Assembly (NCBI GenBank): GCA_009268125.1
Contig: WBOU01000012.1
Coordinates: 124,001-188,000, forward strand
DNA: 64,000 nucleotides
Direction: 5' to 3'
Source of the DNA: Chloroflexia bacterium SDU3-3
Lineage (GTDB): Bacteria; Chloroflexota; Chloroflexia; Chloroflexales; Roseiflexaceae
Positions 25,618 through 56,905 of the stretch are shown piece by piece (the stretch's first letter is position 1; each line of letters starts with the position of its first letter). Position numbers and translations under genes: made by a program. The notes below the pieces were generated by a model. That model had not been told where the DNA came from. It saw nothing but the letters and a program-made list of their open reading frames with translations, and made no database searches.

Positions 25618-25683
25618 GCGTGACTCCTTTCACGTAGAATCGCTAGGCATAGCCTGGATCAGAAGATCTTGAAAGGAGTTCCC

Positions 25684-27075
25684 ATGGGACGGAATGCCAT
25701 CCGTGTGCTCCTCGCCGTTGCTGTCCTGATCACCTCGGCGGCGCTGATACGTGTGGCGGATGCCCACGGCTCGATGCTGACGCCGATCAGCCGCGTCTAT
25801 GCCTGCTACCTAGAGGGGCCGGAGTCGCCCGATACCATGGCCTGCCGCGATGCGATCGCACAGGGCGGTACGCAGCCGCTGTACGATTGGAATGAGGTCA
25901 ATATCTCCAACGCTAGCGGCAACCACCGCGCGCTCATCCCCGACGGCAAGCTCTGCAGCGCAGGCCGCGCCAAGTACGCCGCCTTCGACGAGCCACGGCT
26001 CGACTGGGCGACGACGATGATGCCGACCAGCGGCAACTACACCTTCCTCTACAGCGCGTATGTGCCGCACAACCAGGGCATGTTCGAGCTGTATGTGACC
26101 AAGGATAGCTACGATCCGCTGCAGCCGCTGAAGTGGTCGGATCTGGAGGATACACCCTTCCTCACCGTCGAGCAGCCGCCGGTGGTGGATGGCAACTATG
26201 TGATGACCGGCCCGCTGCCCACCGGCAAGAGCGGCCACCACGTGATCTACGCCATCTGGCAGCGCCACGACAGCGGCGAGGCCTTCTACTCGTGCTCGGA
26301 TGTGTGGTTTGGCAGCCAGCCCACGCCCACGCCCACGGTGGCCCCGGCCTGCACCGCCGCCCCCTGGAGCAGCAGCCAGGTCTACCAGACCGGCGATATG
26401 GTGGCCTACAACGGCATCGAGTGGGTGGCCAAGTGGAGCAACAGCGCCACCGCGCCCAGCACCGCCGGGATCGTGAACCCATGGGGCATGCTGCGCTACT
26501 GCCAGGTGGGCGGCCCAACGGCCACGCCGGGCGCGGCCACCGCCACGCCAGCAGCCACCCGCACGGCCACGCCGCTGCCATCCGCAACCGGCGGCCCCAC
26601 CAGCGCGGCCACCGCCACCCGCACAGCCACACCCACCGCCATCCGCACAGCCACCGCTACCGGCACAGCCACACCCACCGCCATCCGCACAGCCACGGTA
26701 CCCCCGGCGACGCCCACCGCCATCCGCACCTTCACGCCCACGCCCGCCAGCGGCGCGGCCTGCCAGGTGACCTATGTGGCCAACCAGTGGGAGACCGGCT
26801 TCACCGCCACGGTGACGGTGAAGAACACCGGCGCGAGCGCGATCAGCGGCTGGACGCTGGCGTGGAGCTTCCCCGGCAACCAGCAGGTCACCAATGCCTG
26901 GAATGCCACCGTCGCGCAGACTGGCGCGAGCGCGGTGGCCACGAATGCCAGCTGGAACGGCGCTATCGCCAGCGGCGGCAGCACCAGCTTTGGCTTCCAG
27001 GCCACGTTTAGCGGCGCGAACGCGGCCCCGGCCAGCTTCACGCTGAACGGTGCGGCCTGCACCATCGCGCCCTAG
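25684..27075 (+). CDS. Lytic polysaccharide monooxygenase (AA10) with two carbohydrate-binding modules
   Basis: The 463-residue secreted copper enzyme oxidatively cleaves crystalline chitin or cellulose. The signal peptide (1-27) ends VADA, so the mature protein begins with His28 (HGSMLTP), the first residue of the copper His-brace. The second His is probably in YVPHNQG, and the axial Phe in EAFYSCSDVWF. Then come a CBM5/12-like module (about 219-262: PWSSSQVYQTGDMVAYNG), a long Thr/Pro/Ala linker with TPTAIRTAT repeats, and a C-terminal CBM2 (about 360-463: CQVTYVANQWETGF). CBM2 favours cellulose or chitin. The start at 25684 follows AAAGGAG. It is convergent with an expansin gene, forming a plant- or fungal-wall-loosening pair. 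Confidence 0.93.
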   Translation: MGRNAIRVLLAVAVLITSAALIRVADAHGSMLTPISRVYACYLEGPESPDTMACRDAIAQGGTQPLYDWNEVNISNASGNHRALIPDGKLCSAGRAKYAAFDEPRLDWATTMMPTSGNYTFLYSAYVPHNQGMFELYVTKDSYDPLQPLKWSDLEDTPFLTVEQPPVVDGNYVMTGPLPTGKSGHHVIYAIWQRHDSGEAFYSCSDVWFGSQPTPTPTVAPACTAAPWSSSQVYQTGDMVAYNGIEWVAKWSNSATAPSTAGIVNPWGMLRYCQVGGPTATPGAATATPAATRTATPLPSATGGPTSAATATRTATPTAIRTATATGTATPTAIRTATVPPATPTAIRTFTPTPASGAACQVTYVANQWETGFTATVTVKNTGASAISGWTLAWSFPGNQQVTNAWNATVAQTGASAVATNASWNGAIASGGSTSFGFQATFSGANAAPASFTLNGAACTIAP

Positions 27076-27101
27076 CGCATCTTTCCCTCGGCACGCATGC
27101 C

Positions 27102-27132
27102 AAACGCCCCCGCCAAACTGGCGGGGGCGTTT
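27102..27132. terminator. Bidirectional terminator between LPMO and expansin genes
   Basis: A 14-bp perfect stem AAACGCCCCCGCCA / TGGCGGGGGCGTTT with a 3-nt loop; A- and T-runs flank the stem so it can work in both directions. Confidence 0.85.
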
Positions 27133-27151
27133 GCTGTGGTGGGCGGCGGCG

Positions 27152-27892
27152 CTACTCTTTGGGGAACTGGGCCGCGCCCGCGATCTCGGTCGTGACCGTG
27201 AGCGGGATGCCGGTGTCGACGATCTGGTTGCCGTAGATGTCGGTCACGCGGAAGGTGTAGGGGCCGGTGCCCATGCCTTTGTCATCCGAGTTTTTGAGGA
27301 AGTAGTTGTACTCCATGCGCCCCAGCTCCTCAAACTCGCCATTGGCGTTCTTGTACTCGAACTTGGCGATCGGGTTGCGGTGGTTGCGCACCTGCACCGC
27401 TGTCCACCACTGGCTGCTGCCCTCTTTGATATAGTAGATCAGGTTGCCCGAGATGTCGGGGCTGATGATCTTCCATGTGATCGGCACGCGCCCGGCGGAG
27501 CGCTCGGCGATCTTGTCGAAGGCCTCGACGCTCAGGTCGATGTCGCCCGGCTTGCACTCGGGGCAGCGGTCCACGATTCGGATGGTGGCCGTGCCCTTGG
27601 GGCCGGTGAGCGTGACATAGGCCCCGCAGATGGCCGAGTTGGCGTAGTCGGTCTGGTTCATCGCGCCCACCATCAGGTCGTTGGGCGTGGCGGGGTAGGA
27701 GCAGTTGCCAGCGCCGGTCGCGCCGTAGTAGGTGCCCTCGCCGCTGTGGGTGGGCTGGCTGCTGGCCTTGCCCCCGGCCTTGGTGATCAGCGGCAGGTAC
27801 ACGCTGGATGTGGCGCTGATGATATTCTGGGCGTTGGCAACACCTGCGCTGAGGAAAAAGAGCGTAACAAGTGCGAGCAGACGTCGTCGCAT
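27152..27892 (-). CDS. Bacterial expansin (EXLX type)
   Basis: The 246-residue secreted protein has a signal peptide (MRRRLLALVTLFFLSAGVAN, cleavage near AQ), a short spacer that contains SSVYLPLITK, and then the two expansin domains. The first is a double-psi beta-barrel (about 50-145: GEGTYYGATGAGNCSY; catalytic-type Asp in IVDRCPECKPGDIDLS). The second is a CBM63-like domain (about 155-240: WWTAVQVRNHRNPIAKFEY). Expansins loosen cellulose without hydrolysis. ATG at 27892 follows AAAGGAC. It is convergent with the LPMO gene, and the pair probably acts on the same plant-type substrate. Confidence 0.9.
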   Translation of the reverse strand: MRRRLLALVTLFFLSAGVANAQNIISATSSVYLPLITKAGGKASSQPTHSGEGTYYGATGAGNCSYPATPNDLMVGAMNQTDYANSAICGAYVTLTGPKGTATIRIVDRCPECKPGDIDLSVEAFDKIAERSAGRVPITWKIISPDISGNLIYYIKEGSSQWWTAVQVRNHRNPIAKFEYKNANGEFEELGRMEYNYFLKNSDDKGMGTGPYTFRVTDIYGNQIVDTGIPLTVTTEIAGAAQFPKE

Positions 27893-28034
27893 GCAGGCAG
27901 TCCTTTCTGTATCTGACACCACCGCTATGATAGGCCAGCGCTGCGCGATCTGCTAGGTGCGTAGCATGACAGTTTGGTCACAGGCATTTTAGCGGCGCGG
28001 TGAAATGATTCAGTGGTGAATTCACCTACCGTTC

Positions 28035-28266: not shown

Positions 28267-31236
28267 CTACGCCGCGCTCTGGGCGCTGCGCCGCTGGAGG
28301 TAGGCGGCGATGAAGGCATCCAGCGCGCCCTCGAACACCGCGCGCGGGTTGGTGCTCACCACGCCGGTGCGCGGGTCTTTCACCTGCGAGCGGCGCGAGA
28401 GCTGGTAGGCCCGCGCCACCGAGCCCCAGGGCGGCTCGGCCTCTAGCTCGGCGCTGGCCGCGCGGCCCAGGCTGAGCCGCCCGCGCAGCAGCGCCAGGGC
28501 CAGCGCCTCGGCGCTGCTGGCGTCGCCCTCGGTGGCGGCGGTGGCGCTGGTGCCGCTGGGCAGGTGCACCGCCCGCGCCTCGCCGCGCAGCCGCCGCAGC
28601 CGCCTGCCCCGGCTGTGCAGCATGCGCGGCTCGACCAGCAGATCGGCGGCGGGGATGCGCAGCGCGCCCTCCTCCACGGCGGGGATGACCTCCACGCGCA
28701 CCTGCGACACCTGCTTGCGGCGGGCCTCGCCGCTGGCCACCACCTCCGCGAAGCGGTGGGTGCCGCGCTCGGCCTGCAGCAGCCCATAGGCCCCGCGCCC
28801 CTCCACCAGCAGGGTCACGCGCCAGGCGCTGGCCTCGGGCGGGGCCTCGTCCACCGTGGTGCATGTCAGGTCGTGGCCCGAGGCCCAGCTGGTGTACATC
28901 TCGGCCAGATGGCCGCCCCAGCGCGGAGCCTCGGCCTCGCCCGGCGCGCCCGAGAGCACCAGGTAGGCGTCGCCCCACTCCTCGGCGGCGCTGAAGTGCT
29001 CCTCCAGCTCGGCGAAGCCGATCTCGCGCTCGATCTGGGCTAGCTGGCGGGCCGCGTCGGGGATGAGCCTGCGCTGGTGGCGGGCCACCACCCGCTCGAC
29101 CAGCGCCTCGAAGTCCTCGATCGCGCGGCGCAGCTCGTCGCTGCGGTCCACCTGGCGGCTCATCTCGCCTAGCTCGGCCAGGCGGGTCTCGGCGGCGCGG
29201 CTGTCATCCCAGAAGGCCGGGCCGCTCATCTCGGCCAGCAGCTCGTCCATGCGCTCGCGGGCGGCCTGCACGCCGATCCGCTCGCGGTAGCGGTCGAGCC
29301 GCTCGCGCAGCTGGCGGGCGCTGGCCACCAGATCGGCGGGGGCCAGGCTGCGCCGCTGCCCGTCCACCACCACGCTGGTCTCCTCCTGCTCGGGGCTGTC
29401 CTCGCGCACCCACCCAGCCTCGATCATCTCGCCTCTGGTGTAGAGCCGCACCGTGCGGCCGCTGGCCTCGCCGGGGCGGGCCAGGATGGCGCGGGCTAGC
29501 GGGTACGAGATGCGCTTCTCGATCTGGCGCTTCAGGTAGCGCGCACCGTAGCGTGCGCTGTAGCCGTGCTTGAGCAGCAGGTCGATCACGGCGTCATCCA
29601 GCTCCACTGTCAGCGCGCGGCGGGTCAGGCCCTCGCGCTGGAACAGCTTGCGCAGCTCGCGGTAGGCGATGTGGCGCATGTCGGCCAGCGACAGCGGCTT
29701 GAAGAACAGCACGCTGTCCAGCCGGTTGATGAACTCGGGGGTGAAGAAGCTCTCGGTCTCGCGCATGATCCGGCGCTCGGTCGACTCGACATCCTCGCGC
29801 CCGCCGAAGCCCCAGCCCTCGCCCTGCAGCAGCTGCGCGCCGAAGTTGCTGGTCATAATGATGACCATGTTGCGCAGGTTCACCTCCTCGCCCGCCGGGT
29901 TGATCAGGATGCCCTCGTCGAACACCTGCAGGAAGCGCTGGAAGATCATCTCGTGGGCCTTCTCGAACTCATCCAGCAGCACCACGCCGAAGCTCTCGCC
30001 CGCCAGCCGCCGCGAGAGCGAGCCGCGCTTGAGCGCCAGCTCGTCGGCGTCGGGGTCGCCGAATAGCTCCTCGTACTGCCAGTAGAAGGCGTAGTCGGCC
30101 ATGTTGAAGCGCAGCAGCTTCTCCTCGGTGCCGAACAGGAAGGCGCACAGGGTCTTGGCCAGCTCGGTCTTGCCCACGCCGGTGGGGCCAAGGAATAGGA
30201 ACACGCCCAGCGGGCGGGCCGGGTCGTTCAGGCGGGCCTTGATCAGGGCGATGGCCTGCACCACGGCGGCGATGGCTGGCTCCTGGCCCAGCACGCGCTC
30301 GCTGAAGTAGCGCTGCACCTCATCCTCGGCGAAGGGCTGCGAGTCATCCAGCAGCAGCCCGGCCAGCCCGGTGCGCTCGGCGAAGGATGCGAACACGTGC
30401 TGGGCATCCAGCTGCTGCGCGCCGCTGCGGCGGGCGTAGCGGATGGCGTCCTCCAGCATGTCGATGGCCTTGCCGGGCAGGGCCTGGTTGAGCAGGAAGC
30501 GCGCGGCCACATCCAGCGCGGCCTCTAGCGCCTCGGGCTGCGGCACGATCGCCGATCCGCCCGCCAGGTCGAGCGCCGCCGCCTCAAGGATGGGCCGCGC
30601 GGCATCCAGCCCTAGGTCGGGCATGGCCACTTGGCCGAAGCACTCGGTGAAGGTGGTGTCCTCGCTGGCGGTCACGCGCCAGACATCGGCGCGGGCCTCG
30701 GCCAGCCAGCGCTGCTTGCCGTTGCGCAGCGATGTCACCAGGGCGTCGGCCAGGTCGCTGTCGTCGTCGCCCTGCTTGCCCGCGCCCACGGCGTGGTGGG
30801 CGTCGCGCAGGAACAGGATGGCGTTGCCCTGCTCCTCAAGGCCCTGTAGCAGCTTGTTCAGGTTCTCGCGCCAGCCCTCGCCAAACGAGAGCGCCGAGAT
30901 TAGGCTGGATGGCGAGATCTCGTACACGGTGGCGCTGGCCAGATCTTCGGGGCACTGGCCACTGGCGATCCGCCAGGCCAGCTCGTGGGCCAGCGCGGTC
31001 TTTCCGCTGCGGGCCTTGCCGATGATCAGCGGGCACTTGCTGCTGTCGGCGCGCAGCAGCTGCCAGATGGCCTCGATCTGCGCCTCTACGCCGTAGGCGC
31101 GGCGCGCGGCCCTGGCCGGATCGGTGAGGCTGGTGGCGCAGCGCTGCAGCAGGTGGGCGACGCTCGGCTCGCTGGCATCGCCGCCCGCTGGCGTGCTGGT
31201 CTCCTCTTCGGCGTGGGAGGGGGTTGAATCTGTCAT
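28267..31236 (-). CDS. Clp-type AAA+ unfoldase fused to a degenerate release-factor-2 domain
   Basis: A 989-residue fusion. Residues about 25-300 are a Clp D1 module with Walker A GKARSGKT (about 73-80). Its Walker B region reads AILFLRDAHHAVGAG, so the usual acidic DE pair is RD and D1 is probably weak or inactive. Residues about 305-600 are an intact D2: GPTGVGKT (about 350-357), VVLLDEFEKAH, TSNFGA, FTPEFINRLD, and the D2-small SARYGARYLKRQI. After TSNFGA the protein has WGFGG where ClpC has its ClpP-binding VGF loop. Residues about 640-989 match RF2: GPAFWDDSRAAE, YGLLQAERGTHRF, and a closing WGSVARAYQL...VKDPRTGV. The SPF and GGQ motifs are absent. ATG at 31236 lacks a strong Shine-Dalgarno. 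It may act at stalled ribosomes; that is inference. Confidence 0.85.
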   Translation of the reverse strand: MTDSTPSHAEEETSTPAGGDASEPSVAHLLQRCATSLTDPARAARRAYGVEAQIEAIWQLLRADSSKCPLIIGKARSGKTALAHELAWRIASGQCPEDLASATVYEISPSSLISALSFGEGWRENLNKLLQGLEEQGNAILFLRDAHHAVGAGKQGDDDSDLADALVTSLRNGKQRWLAEARADVWRVTASEDTTFTECFGQVAMPDLGLDAARPILEAAALDLAGGSAIVPQPEALEAALDVAARFLLNQALPGKAIDMLEDAIRYARRSGAQQLDAQHVFASFAERTGLAGLLLDDSQPFAEDEVQRYFSERVLGQEPAIAAVVQAIALIKARLNDPARPLGVFLFLGPTGVGKTELAKTLCAFLFGTEEKLLRFNMADYAFYWQYEELFGDPDADELALKRGSLSRRLAGESFGVVLLDEFEKAHEMIFQRFLQVFDEGILINPAGEEVNLRNMVIIMTSNFGAQLLQGEGWGFGGREDVESTERRIMRETESFFTPEFINRLDSVLFFKPLSLADMRHIAYRELRKLFQREGLTRRALTVELDDAVIDLLLKHGYSARYGARYLKRQIEKRISYPLARAILARPGEASGRTVRLYTRGEMIEAGWVREDSPEQEETSVVVDGQRRSLAPADLVASARQLRERLDRYRERIGVQAARERMDELLAEMSGPAFWDDSRAAETRLAELGEMSRQVDRSDELRRAIEDFEALVERVVARHQRRLIPDAARQLAQIEREIGFAELEEHFSAAEEWGDAYLVLSGAPGEAEAPRWGGHLAEMYTSWASGHDLTCTTVDEAPPEASAWRVTLLVEGRGAYGLLQAERGTHRFAEVVASGEARRKQVSQVRVEVIPAVEEGALRIPAADLLVEPRMLHSRGRRLRRLRGEARAVHLPSGTSATAATEGDASSAEALALALLRGRLSLGRAASAELEAEPPWGSVARAYQLSRRSQVKDPRTGVVSTNPRAVFEGALDAFIAAYLQRRSAQSAA

Positions 31237-40725: not shown

Positions 40726-40829
40726 CCTACGTATGATTGCTATTGACAAATGCGCAGAGGTTCGCATGCTTGGTAGTGATACTTTATTGGCAGATAGAAT
40801 ATTTTGTGCGTAGATCAACGGAATGTCAC

Positions 40830-41081
40830 GAAGATCTGACGGAAGGCCGCGAAGATCTGGCGGAAGGCCGCGAAGATCTGACGGAAGGCCGCGAAGATCT
40901 AGCCGAAGGCCGCGAAGATCTGGCGGAAGGCCACGAAGATCTGACGGAAGGCCGCGAAGATCTGATGGAAGGCCGCGAAGATCTGACGGAAGGCCGCGAA
41001 GATCTGGCGGAAGGCCGCGAAGATCTGGCGGAAGGCCGCGAAGATCTGGCGGAAGGCCGCGAAGATCTGACCGAACGTCGG
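40830..41081 (+). repeat. Tandem array of twelve 21-bp units
   Basis: The unit GAAGATCTGRCGGAAGGCCG(C) repeats twelve times with only single-base changes; the last unit is the most diverged. 21 bp is an exact multiple of three, so all frames stay open: plus frame encodes E-D-L-(T/A)-E-G-R repeats and the minus frame I-F-A-A-F-R-Q repeats. No start codon with a ribosome binding site was found for either. The array ends 38 bp before livG. Confidence 0.9.
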
Positions 41082-56830: not shown

Positions 56831-56905
56831 AGGTGAACGCGCGACGAAGGCAGGTGAACGCGCGACGAAGGCAGGTGAGCGCGCGACGAAGGCAGGTGAA
56901 CGCAT
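56831..56905 (+). repeat. Tandem array of 21-bp units (about 3.5 copies)
   Basis: AGGTGAACGCGCGACGAAGG(C) three times with one change, then a partial AGGTGAACGCATGATGAAGC. Each unit contains an AGGTGA that looks like a Shine-Dalgarno. It lies 54 bp after the BMP stop. The unit differs in sequence from the 40.8-kb array but has the same length. Confidence 0.85.

Follow-up and report, generated by a model that had tools for sequence, protein, structure and literature searches.

In a 64,000-nucleotide stretch of contig WBOU01000012.1 from Chloroflexia bacterium SDU3-3 (the whole of which is referred to below as the window), we identified a gene whose 989-residue product consists of two Clp-type AAA+ modules followed by a C-terminal module resembling bacterial release factor 2 (RF2). 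The gene belongs to a family of fusions present in 26 Chloroflexota genomes, in which the release factor half has lost the SPF motif of stop-codon reading and the GGQ motif of peptide release, and the ATPase half has lost the pore loop of its second AAA+ module. These features are suggestive of an RF2 derivative that may have been retained as a docking platform for a Clp-type motor.

An earlier note on this DNA, made from the sequence and its translations, had proposed that a two-domain Clp ATPase and an RF2-like module share one 989-codon frame, and both Pfam and the prfB profile bear this out. The protein scored above the respective cut-offs for AAA_2 (131 bits), ClpB_D2-small (53 bits) and PCRF (77.5 bits; E 1.6e-21), while its residues 641-981 were covered by positions 2-353 of the TIGR00020 prfB profile, end to end, at 163 bits, a score that lies below the curated prfB cut-off of 370 bits. 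The GPAFWDD, YGLLQAERGTHRF and WGSVARAYQL...KDPRTGV blocks were also confirmed. The Pfam RF-1 family (PF00472), corresponding to the GGQ domain, had no match in the window protein, nor at any fusion locus across 11 genomes in which ordinary release factors do match. Comparison with the PADLOC anti-phage families yielded nothing beyond the generic AAA+ core: the matches, to DolB and PDC-M37B, were partial and fell within the ATPase modules.

Alignment of the release factor half upheld the reading of ASG at the SPF site and of a basic HSRGRRLRR stretch at the GGQ site. Neither SPF nor GGQ was recovered in any of 25 full-length fusion copies, the pattern that the earlier note had named as one that would support its idea, and contrary to the possibility, also raised at the time, that homologues keep it. 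The closest approach to SPF was the SPK or SPE of the G424 group, and the GGQ site was found to hold RGR, VGQ, NGH, DGY, SGE, AGM and others, usually with the second glycine retained. The alpha7/switch segment of RF1 and RF2 allows domain 3 to swing into the peptidyl-transferase centre; this segment comprises 15-25 residues in 11 fusions, compared with 29 in the six RF2 sequences listed, and because of this shortening accommodation of the fusion module looks impossible. In each of the six long-form copies, domain 3 is either missing or cut to a short unrelated linker, with domains 1, 2 and 4 persisting. Mean retention among fusions of RF2 columns that are at least 95% invariant was 0.81 for domain 4, 0.75 for domain 1 (four columns only), 0.45 for domain 2 and 0.31 for domain 3, and near-invariant RF2-wide residues such as RxY and DxRT are unchanged. 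By these sequence comparisons, confident RF2 likeness is limited to domains 1, 2 and 4, with domain 3 a remnant in the window protein and deleted in some relatives. Given the lost motifs, the shortened alpha7/switch segment and the complete absence of domain 3 from six copies, the proposal that the module neither reads stop codons nor releases peptides is strongly supported.

Structural comparisons of the module gave a consistent picture. Its profile matched solved structures of RF2 over the full length (E 6e-66) and of RF1 (1e-38), and its AlphaFold model (predicted local distance difference test (pLDDT) 85.9; predicted template modelling score (pTM) 0.81) was closest to free Escherichia coli RF2 (1gqe; Z 29.9 over 346 residues), followed by ribosome-bound RF2 in its pre-accommodated state (5mdw; Z 27.3). 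Since accommodated release factor forms rank below both of these structures, the model represents the compact form. The modelled fold is of the RF2 type found in bacterial release factors, and not that of the aeRF1 superfamily, which settles the earlier concern that the C-terminal part might not model as RF2.

Searches within Chloroflexota placed the fusion in 10 families belonging to at least three classes; the complete Herpetosiphon aurantiacus genome CP000875 is among those that carry it. A class-wide search with the release factor module identified nine further fusions (41-66% identity; frames of about 1020-1057 codons) in one Roseiflexaceae metagenome-assembled genome (MAG), two Herpetosiphonaceae MAGs and six Herpetosiphon strains, H. 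aurantiacus DSM 785 among them. Phylum-wide searches, in one of which the E-value threshold undercounted diverged copies, added fusions in genomes G168, G424, G240, G310, G331, G433 and G436. Searching within the class of G436 added G682, G700 and G727, as well as longer versions (1155-1194 codons) in G581, G591, G695, G713, G738 and G760, with scores of 706-750 bits for fusions from this search. In the phylum-wide search with a full-length profile, fusions scored at least 856 bits, against 514 for the ordinary Clp proteins that came next; the distribution is patchy, with the fusion in 15 of 400 sampled genomes. The long forms (L145, L146, L147, L148, L149 and L153) carry an extra N-terminal domain of about 190 residues, apparently made of two similar halves, which matched none of the listed Pfam families in the four of six copies scanned. 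In a plasmid search, the records listed contained nothing other than ordinary prfB. This occurrence is far beyond chance, and the spread over 26 genomes, CP000875 included, rules out an assembly artefact or single-strain oddity, an outcome that the earlier note had allowed for.

Phylogenetic reconstruction placed all 11 fusion release factor modules tested together, apart from 34 RF2 and eight RF1 rows, in a tree with long branches (Shimodaira-Hasegawa-like approximate likelihood ratio test 100). The ATPase halves also form one group in an unrooted tree; midpoint rooting places the f49 copies beside ordinary Clp proteins. Judged from these trees, the Clp-RF2 fusions are a family of single origin. 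The ratio of nonsynonymous to synonymous substitution rates (dN/dS) was well below 1 in both halves for the pairs compared, and mostly 0.02-0.5 for release factor domains 1, 2 and 4, indicative of purifying selection and ruling out a pseudogene; domain 3 was the fastest-evolving part of the release factor half in most pairs.

The ATPase half was aligned with the same genome's own ClpB and two ClpC-type proteins, and motifs were counted over 19 family members. Relative to these three proteins the middle domain is absent, and Clp_N had no match in the window protein, which begins about 40 residues ahead of the first AAA+ module (D1). In D1 the Walker A motif is kept, the DE of Walker B is replaced by RD, ED, SD, DD or DQ, and the ERRF arginine finger is lost in every member; the pore-loop aromatic varies by lineage, being retained in some (KYLGEW, QYIGTW) but absent from others (GGLHQW). 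In the second module (D2), Walker A, LLDE (VLDE in G436), the NR(L/I)D finger and GAR are intact in 18 of the 19 members. The G168 copy (L096 4181-7072), which may be decaying or non-hydrolytic, is degenerate in these key D2 residues (GVGKI and LLDD, with the arginine finger missing). None of the 19 members retains the GYVGY pore loop of D2, which is either replaced or deleted. These motif patterns suggest that D2 is probably the motor and D1 a nucleotide-binding scaffold. Classic threading through D2 is doubtful, and the term "unfoldase" used in the earlier note is weakened because the D2 pore loop is gone from every copy and the D1 hydrolysis residues are also lost; the altered motor, comprising the losses of the D2 pore loop, D1 Walker B and D1 arginine finger, had been overlooked there. 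At the ClpP-docking position of ClpC, a [W/I/L/V]G[F/L] loop occurs in 18 members and GGF in the other, going by sequence, and ClpB is without the loop.

Examination of host rescue systems identified transfer-messenger RNA (tmRNA) in all 11 fusion genomes checked, together with full-length ordinary release factor frames matching PF00472, usually two per genome and one in G062 and G436; the source genome of the window holds separate RF1 and RF2 genes (L001, L002), both with GGQ. The fusion is therefore an addition and not a substitute, and replacement of a missing release factor or tmRNA is ruled out. RqcH was found in 7 of the 11 genomes, with no clear pattern. Stand-alone RF-1-domain frames of 128-150 codons were also detected in five of them (G240, G049, G168, G062 and G424), and are probably ArfB-like rescue hydrolases.

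The fusion gene stands alone in the window, flanked downstream by an expansin-like gene and upstream by a divergent gene for a Ca2+/H+ exchanger. Among Herpetosiphonaceae (L038 6749-12233; L035; L036) it lies between a pyrR-like phosphoribosyltransferase gene and pyrB (aspartate/ornithine carbamoyltransferase), in what looks like the inside of a pyrimidine operon. Genes for XPB/Rad25-like helicases are close to the fusion in two distant lineages, G168 (L096 9243-11345) and G424 (L097 1576-3441), and in G168 the frame of a HEAT-repeat protein overlaps that of the fusion in an apparent operon. An operon with a translation gene was looked for in the window and the family loci read, and none was found.

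Taken together, these features are compatible with a scenario in which a ClpC-derived AAA+ ATPase, having lost its N-domain and the pore loop of D2, would have acquired a C-terminal module of RF2 descent. This module could act as a docking platform through the old RF2 surfaces toward the 30S A site and the L11/GTPase-centre side, holding a hexameric ring, in which D2 would be the motor and D1 the nucleotide-binding scaffold, on ribosomes with an empty A site. ATP hydrolysis might then remodel or clear a stuck stalled complex, bound factor or nascent-chain complex, with ClpP possibly engaged through the conserved GF loop. That an RF2-derived platform carries an ATP-driven Clp ring to open-A-site ribosomes, whether stalled or idle, with neither codon reading nor peptide release, we regard as a real, if tentative, possibility; such a fusion would act in the manner of Cdc48-Vms1 or a Pelota-type rescue factor, without homology to either. 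On the unlikely side is the more specific proposal of a non-threading Clp-type quality-control machine, aimed at ribosomes by an RF2 devoid of decoding and release functions and serving as a one-protein bacterial counterpart of Cdc48-Vms1. As precedents, the hibernation factor Balon is without NIKS and GGQ, yet occupies the ribosomal A site (PMC10901736), and A-site insertion has been proposed for release factor family proteins without the catalytic Gln (PMC6514570). Several points weigh against this docking scenario. Many RF2 residues that meet mRNA, the decoding centre and the peptidyl-transferase centre are lost, and those remaining could be kept for the fold alone; ribosome binding is something we infer. 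No consistent link to translation genes emerged, and no neighbour with a translation role recurs between distant families in the loci read. The missing D2 pore loop makes threading-type unfolding doubtful, and the full-length model (pLDDT 63, pTM 0.39) is too poor for placing the two halves.

The main rival places the RF2 fold off the ribosome, as a protein-protein adaptor or a regulatory or oligomerisation domain of the Clp ATPase. The lost decoding and peptidyl-transferase contacts, a deletable domain 3, gene neighbours outside translation and the extra N-terminal domain of some members are all in its favour, but domains 1, 2 and 4 are kept together with RxY and DxRT unchanged, whereas an arbitrary adaptor would more freely drop parts, as happened with domain 3; we consider this explanation conceivable, if rather doubtful. 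The module might also plug the A site of inactive ribosomes in the manner of Balon, with the ATPase ring removing it or other hibernation factors on recovery. Balon, as a release factor-like protein without GGQ and NIKS, shows that this is feasible (PMC10901736), and coexistence with tmRNA and ordinary release factor genes speaks against a replacement rescue system; however, Balon belongs to the unrelated aeRF1 superfamily, and no stress or RaiA/HPF genes were found near the fusion in the loci read, so that a role in idle ribosomes appears improbable. Delivery of a ClpCP-type protease by the release factor module, to ribosomes or another address for nascent-chain degradation, would agree with the docking-like loop that ClpB does not have. 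In Clp architecture, however, the D2 C-terminus lies on the ClpP-facing side, where the attached module may block docking, and with the D2 pore loop that feeds ClpP lost in all members such a partnership seems very unlikely. Motif loss in both halves, and the further D2 decay in G168, might finally suggest that the fusion has no function and is either decaying or an assembly error. This is barely credible, since frames of about 990-1190 codons stay open across 10 families, complete or closed genomes among them, and for the family it is already refuted by the dN/dS of both halves, leaving G168 alone as possibly decaying.

Comparison with known systems highlights both shared and distinct features of the ribosome-docking candidate. 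With RF2 (prfB) the fusions share the fold, the domain order 1-2-3-4 and the conserved FW, EXGXHR, RxY and DxRT blocks; they differ in having no SPF, GGQ, TSF or CQNERSQ block, in their shorter alpha7/switch segment, and in being joined to an ATPase and coexisting with normal RF2. The class I Clp ATPases ClpC and ClpA likewise possess two AAA+ modules, intact D2 ATPase motifs and the GF loop to which that of the fusions is similar, but retain the Clp_N and middle domains, D1 Walker B, arginine finger and D2 GYVG that the fusions have lost, and are without the C-terminal RF2 module. Balon resembles the fusions as a release factor-type protein without stop-reading and GGQ motifs, but has no ATPase and a fold unrelated to that of RF2, and its ribosome binding has been demonstrated (PMC10901736). 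In eukaryotic ribosome quality control, Cdc48/VCP with Vms1 also pairs an AAA+ ATPase with a release factor-like protein (PMC6514570), but as separate polypeptides, with an aeRF1-type domain and a Cdc48 family ATPase, such that the likeness is one of analogy only. Mitochondrial mS35 contains an inactive bacterial-type release factor domain that has no catalytic Gln and was taken over for a non-catalytic role (PMC6514570); it keeps the catalytic-domain fold and has lost the codon-recognition domain, the reverse of the fusions.

Novelty is claimed here for the architecture alone, within the open-access literature and Chloroflexota, its function being what we infer. To our knowledge, no bacterial AAA+ ATPase targets ribosomes through a release factor module. 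No description of the Clp-RF2 architecture was found in the open-access literature searched, and in the main text of a broad survey of release factors the word Clp does not occur, AAA+ proteins being linked only to Cdc48-Vms1 (PMC6514570). Should the fusions dock on ribosomes, they would add a class driven by ATP to the factors for ribosome rescue, hibernation or remodelling, and indicate that RF2 can be reduced to a pure docking platform; should they not, they would represent a striking full re-use of a translation factor as a Clp accessory domain. Herpetosiphon strains make either reading directly testable.

Table 1. Position of the Clp-RF2 fusion gene and its predicted domains and motif sites within the window.
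Feature	Position	Strand	Basis or remark
Clp-RF2 fusion gene	28267..31236	minus	ATG at 31236, stop codon 28267-28269; 989 codons plus stop
AAA+ module D1, residues about 43-300	30337..31110	minus	Pfam AAA from residue 70 and alignment to same genome's ClpB/ClpC-type proteins; no Clp_N, no ClpB-type middle domain
D1 Walker A GKARSGKT, intact	30997..31020	minus	Alignment
D1 Walker B site, RD in place of DE of Clp proteins; hydrolysis residues lost	30802..30807	minus	Alignment
AAA+ module D2 and small domain, residues about 301-615	29392..30336	minus	AAA_2 341-508, ClpB_D2-small 515-597
D2 Walker A GPTGVGKT, intact	30166..30189	minus	Alignment
D2 pore-loop site, DPDADELALKRG replacing (A/S)PPGYVGYxEGG; aromatic substrate grip lost	30022..30057	minus	Lost in 19/19 family members
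D2 Walker B LLDE, intact	29968..29979	minus	Alignment
WGF at position of ClpC's ClpP-docking IGF/IGL loop (loop absent from ClpB)	29806..29814	minus	Alignment
D2 arginine finger (EFINRLD)	29722..29724	minus	Alignment
Sensor 2 GAR	29539..29547	minus	Alignment
RF2-like domain 1, helical, PCRF start, GPAFWDD	28963..29304	minus	PCRF 660-848 and structure model
RF2-like domain 2, codon-recognition fold	28672..28962	minus	Alignment and structure model
ASG at RF2 SPF stop-codon-reading site	28729..28737	minus	Alignment
Remnant of RF2 domain 3 (peptide-release domain)	28432..28671	minus	PF00472 unmatched; fastest-evolving part
RGR at RF2 GGQ site, inside HSRGRRLRR	28603..28611	minus	Alignment
RF2-like domain 4, WGSVARAYQL...KDPRTG...ALDAFIAAYL, best-kept RF2 part	28282..28431	minus	Mean retention in fusions 0.81 over 14 near-invariant RF2 columns

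Elsewhere in the window, a gene encoding an AA10-type lytic polysaccharide mono-oxygenase with CBM2 (Pfam LPMO_10, 194 bits) adjoins, on the opposite strand, that of a DPBB expansin-like secreted protein (25669-27922), and the two likely constitute a pair for cellulose or chitin attack. A 21-base tandem repeat of 12.3 copies with 92% matches was also identified at 40818-41075, flanked by the genes of a transporter permease and an ABC (ATP-binding cassette) ATPase, and a second 21-base tandem array occurs at 56831-56903.
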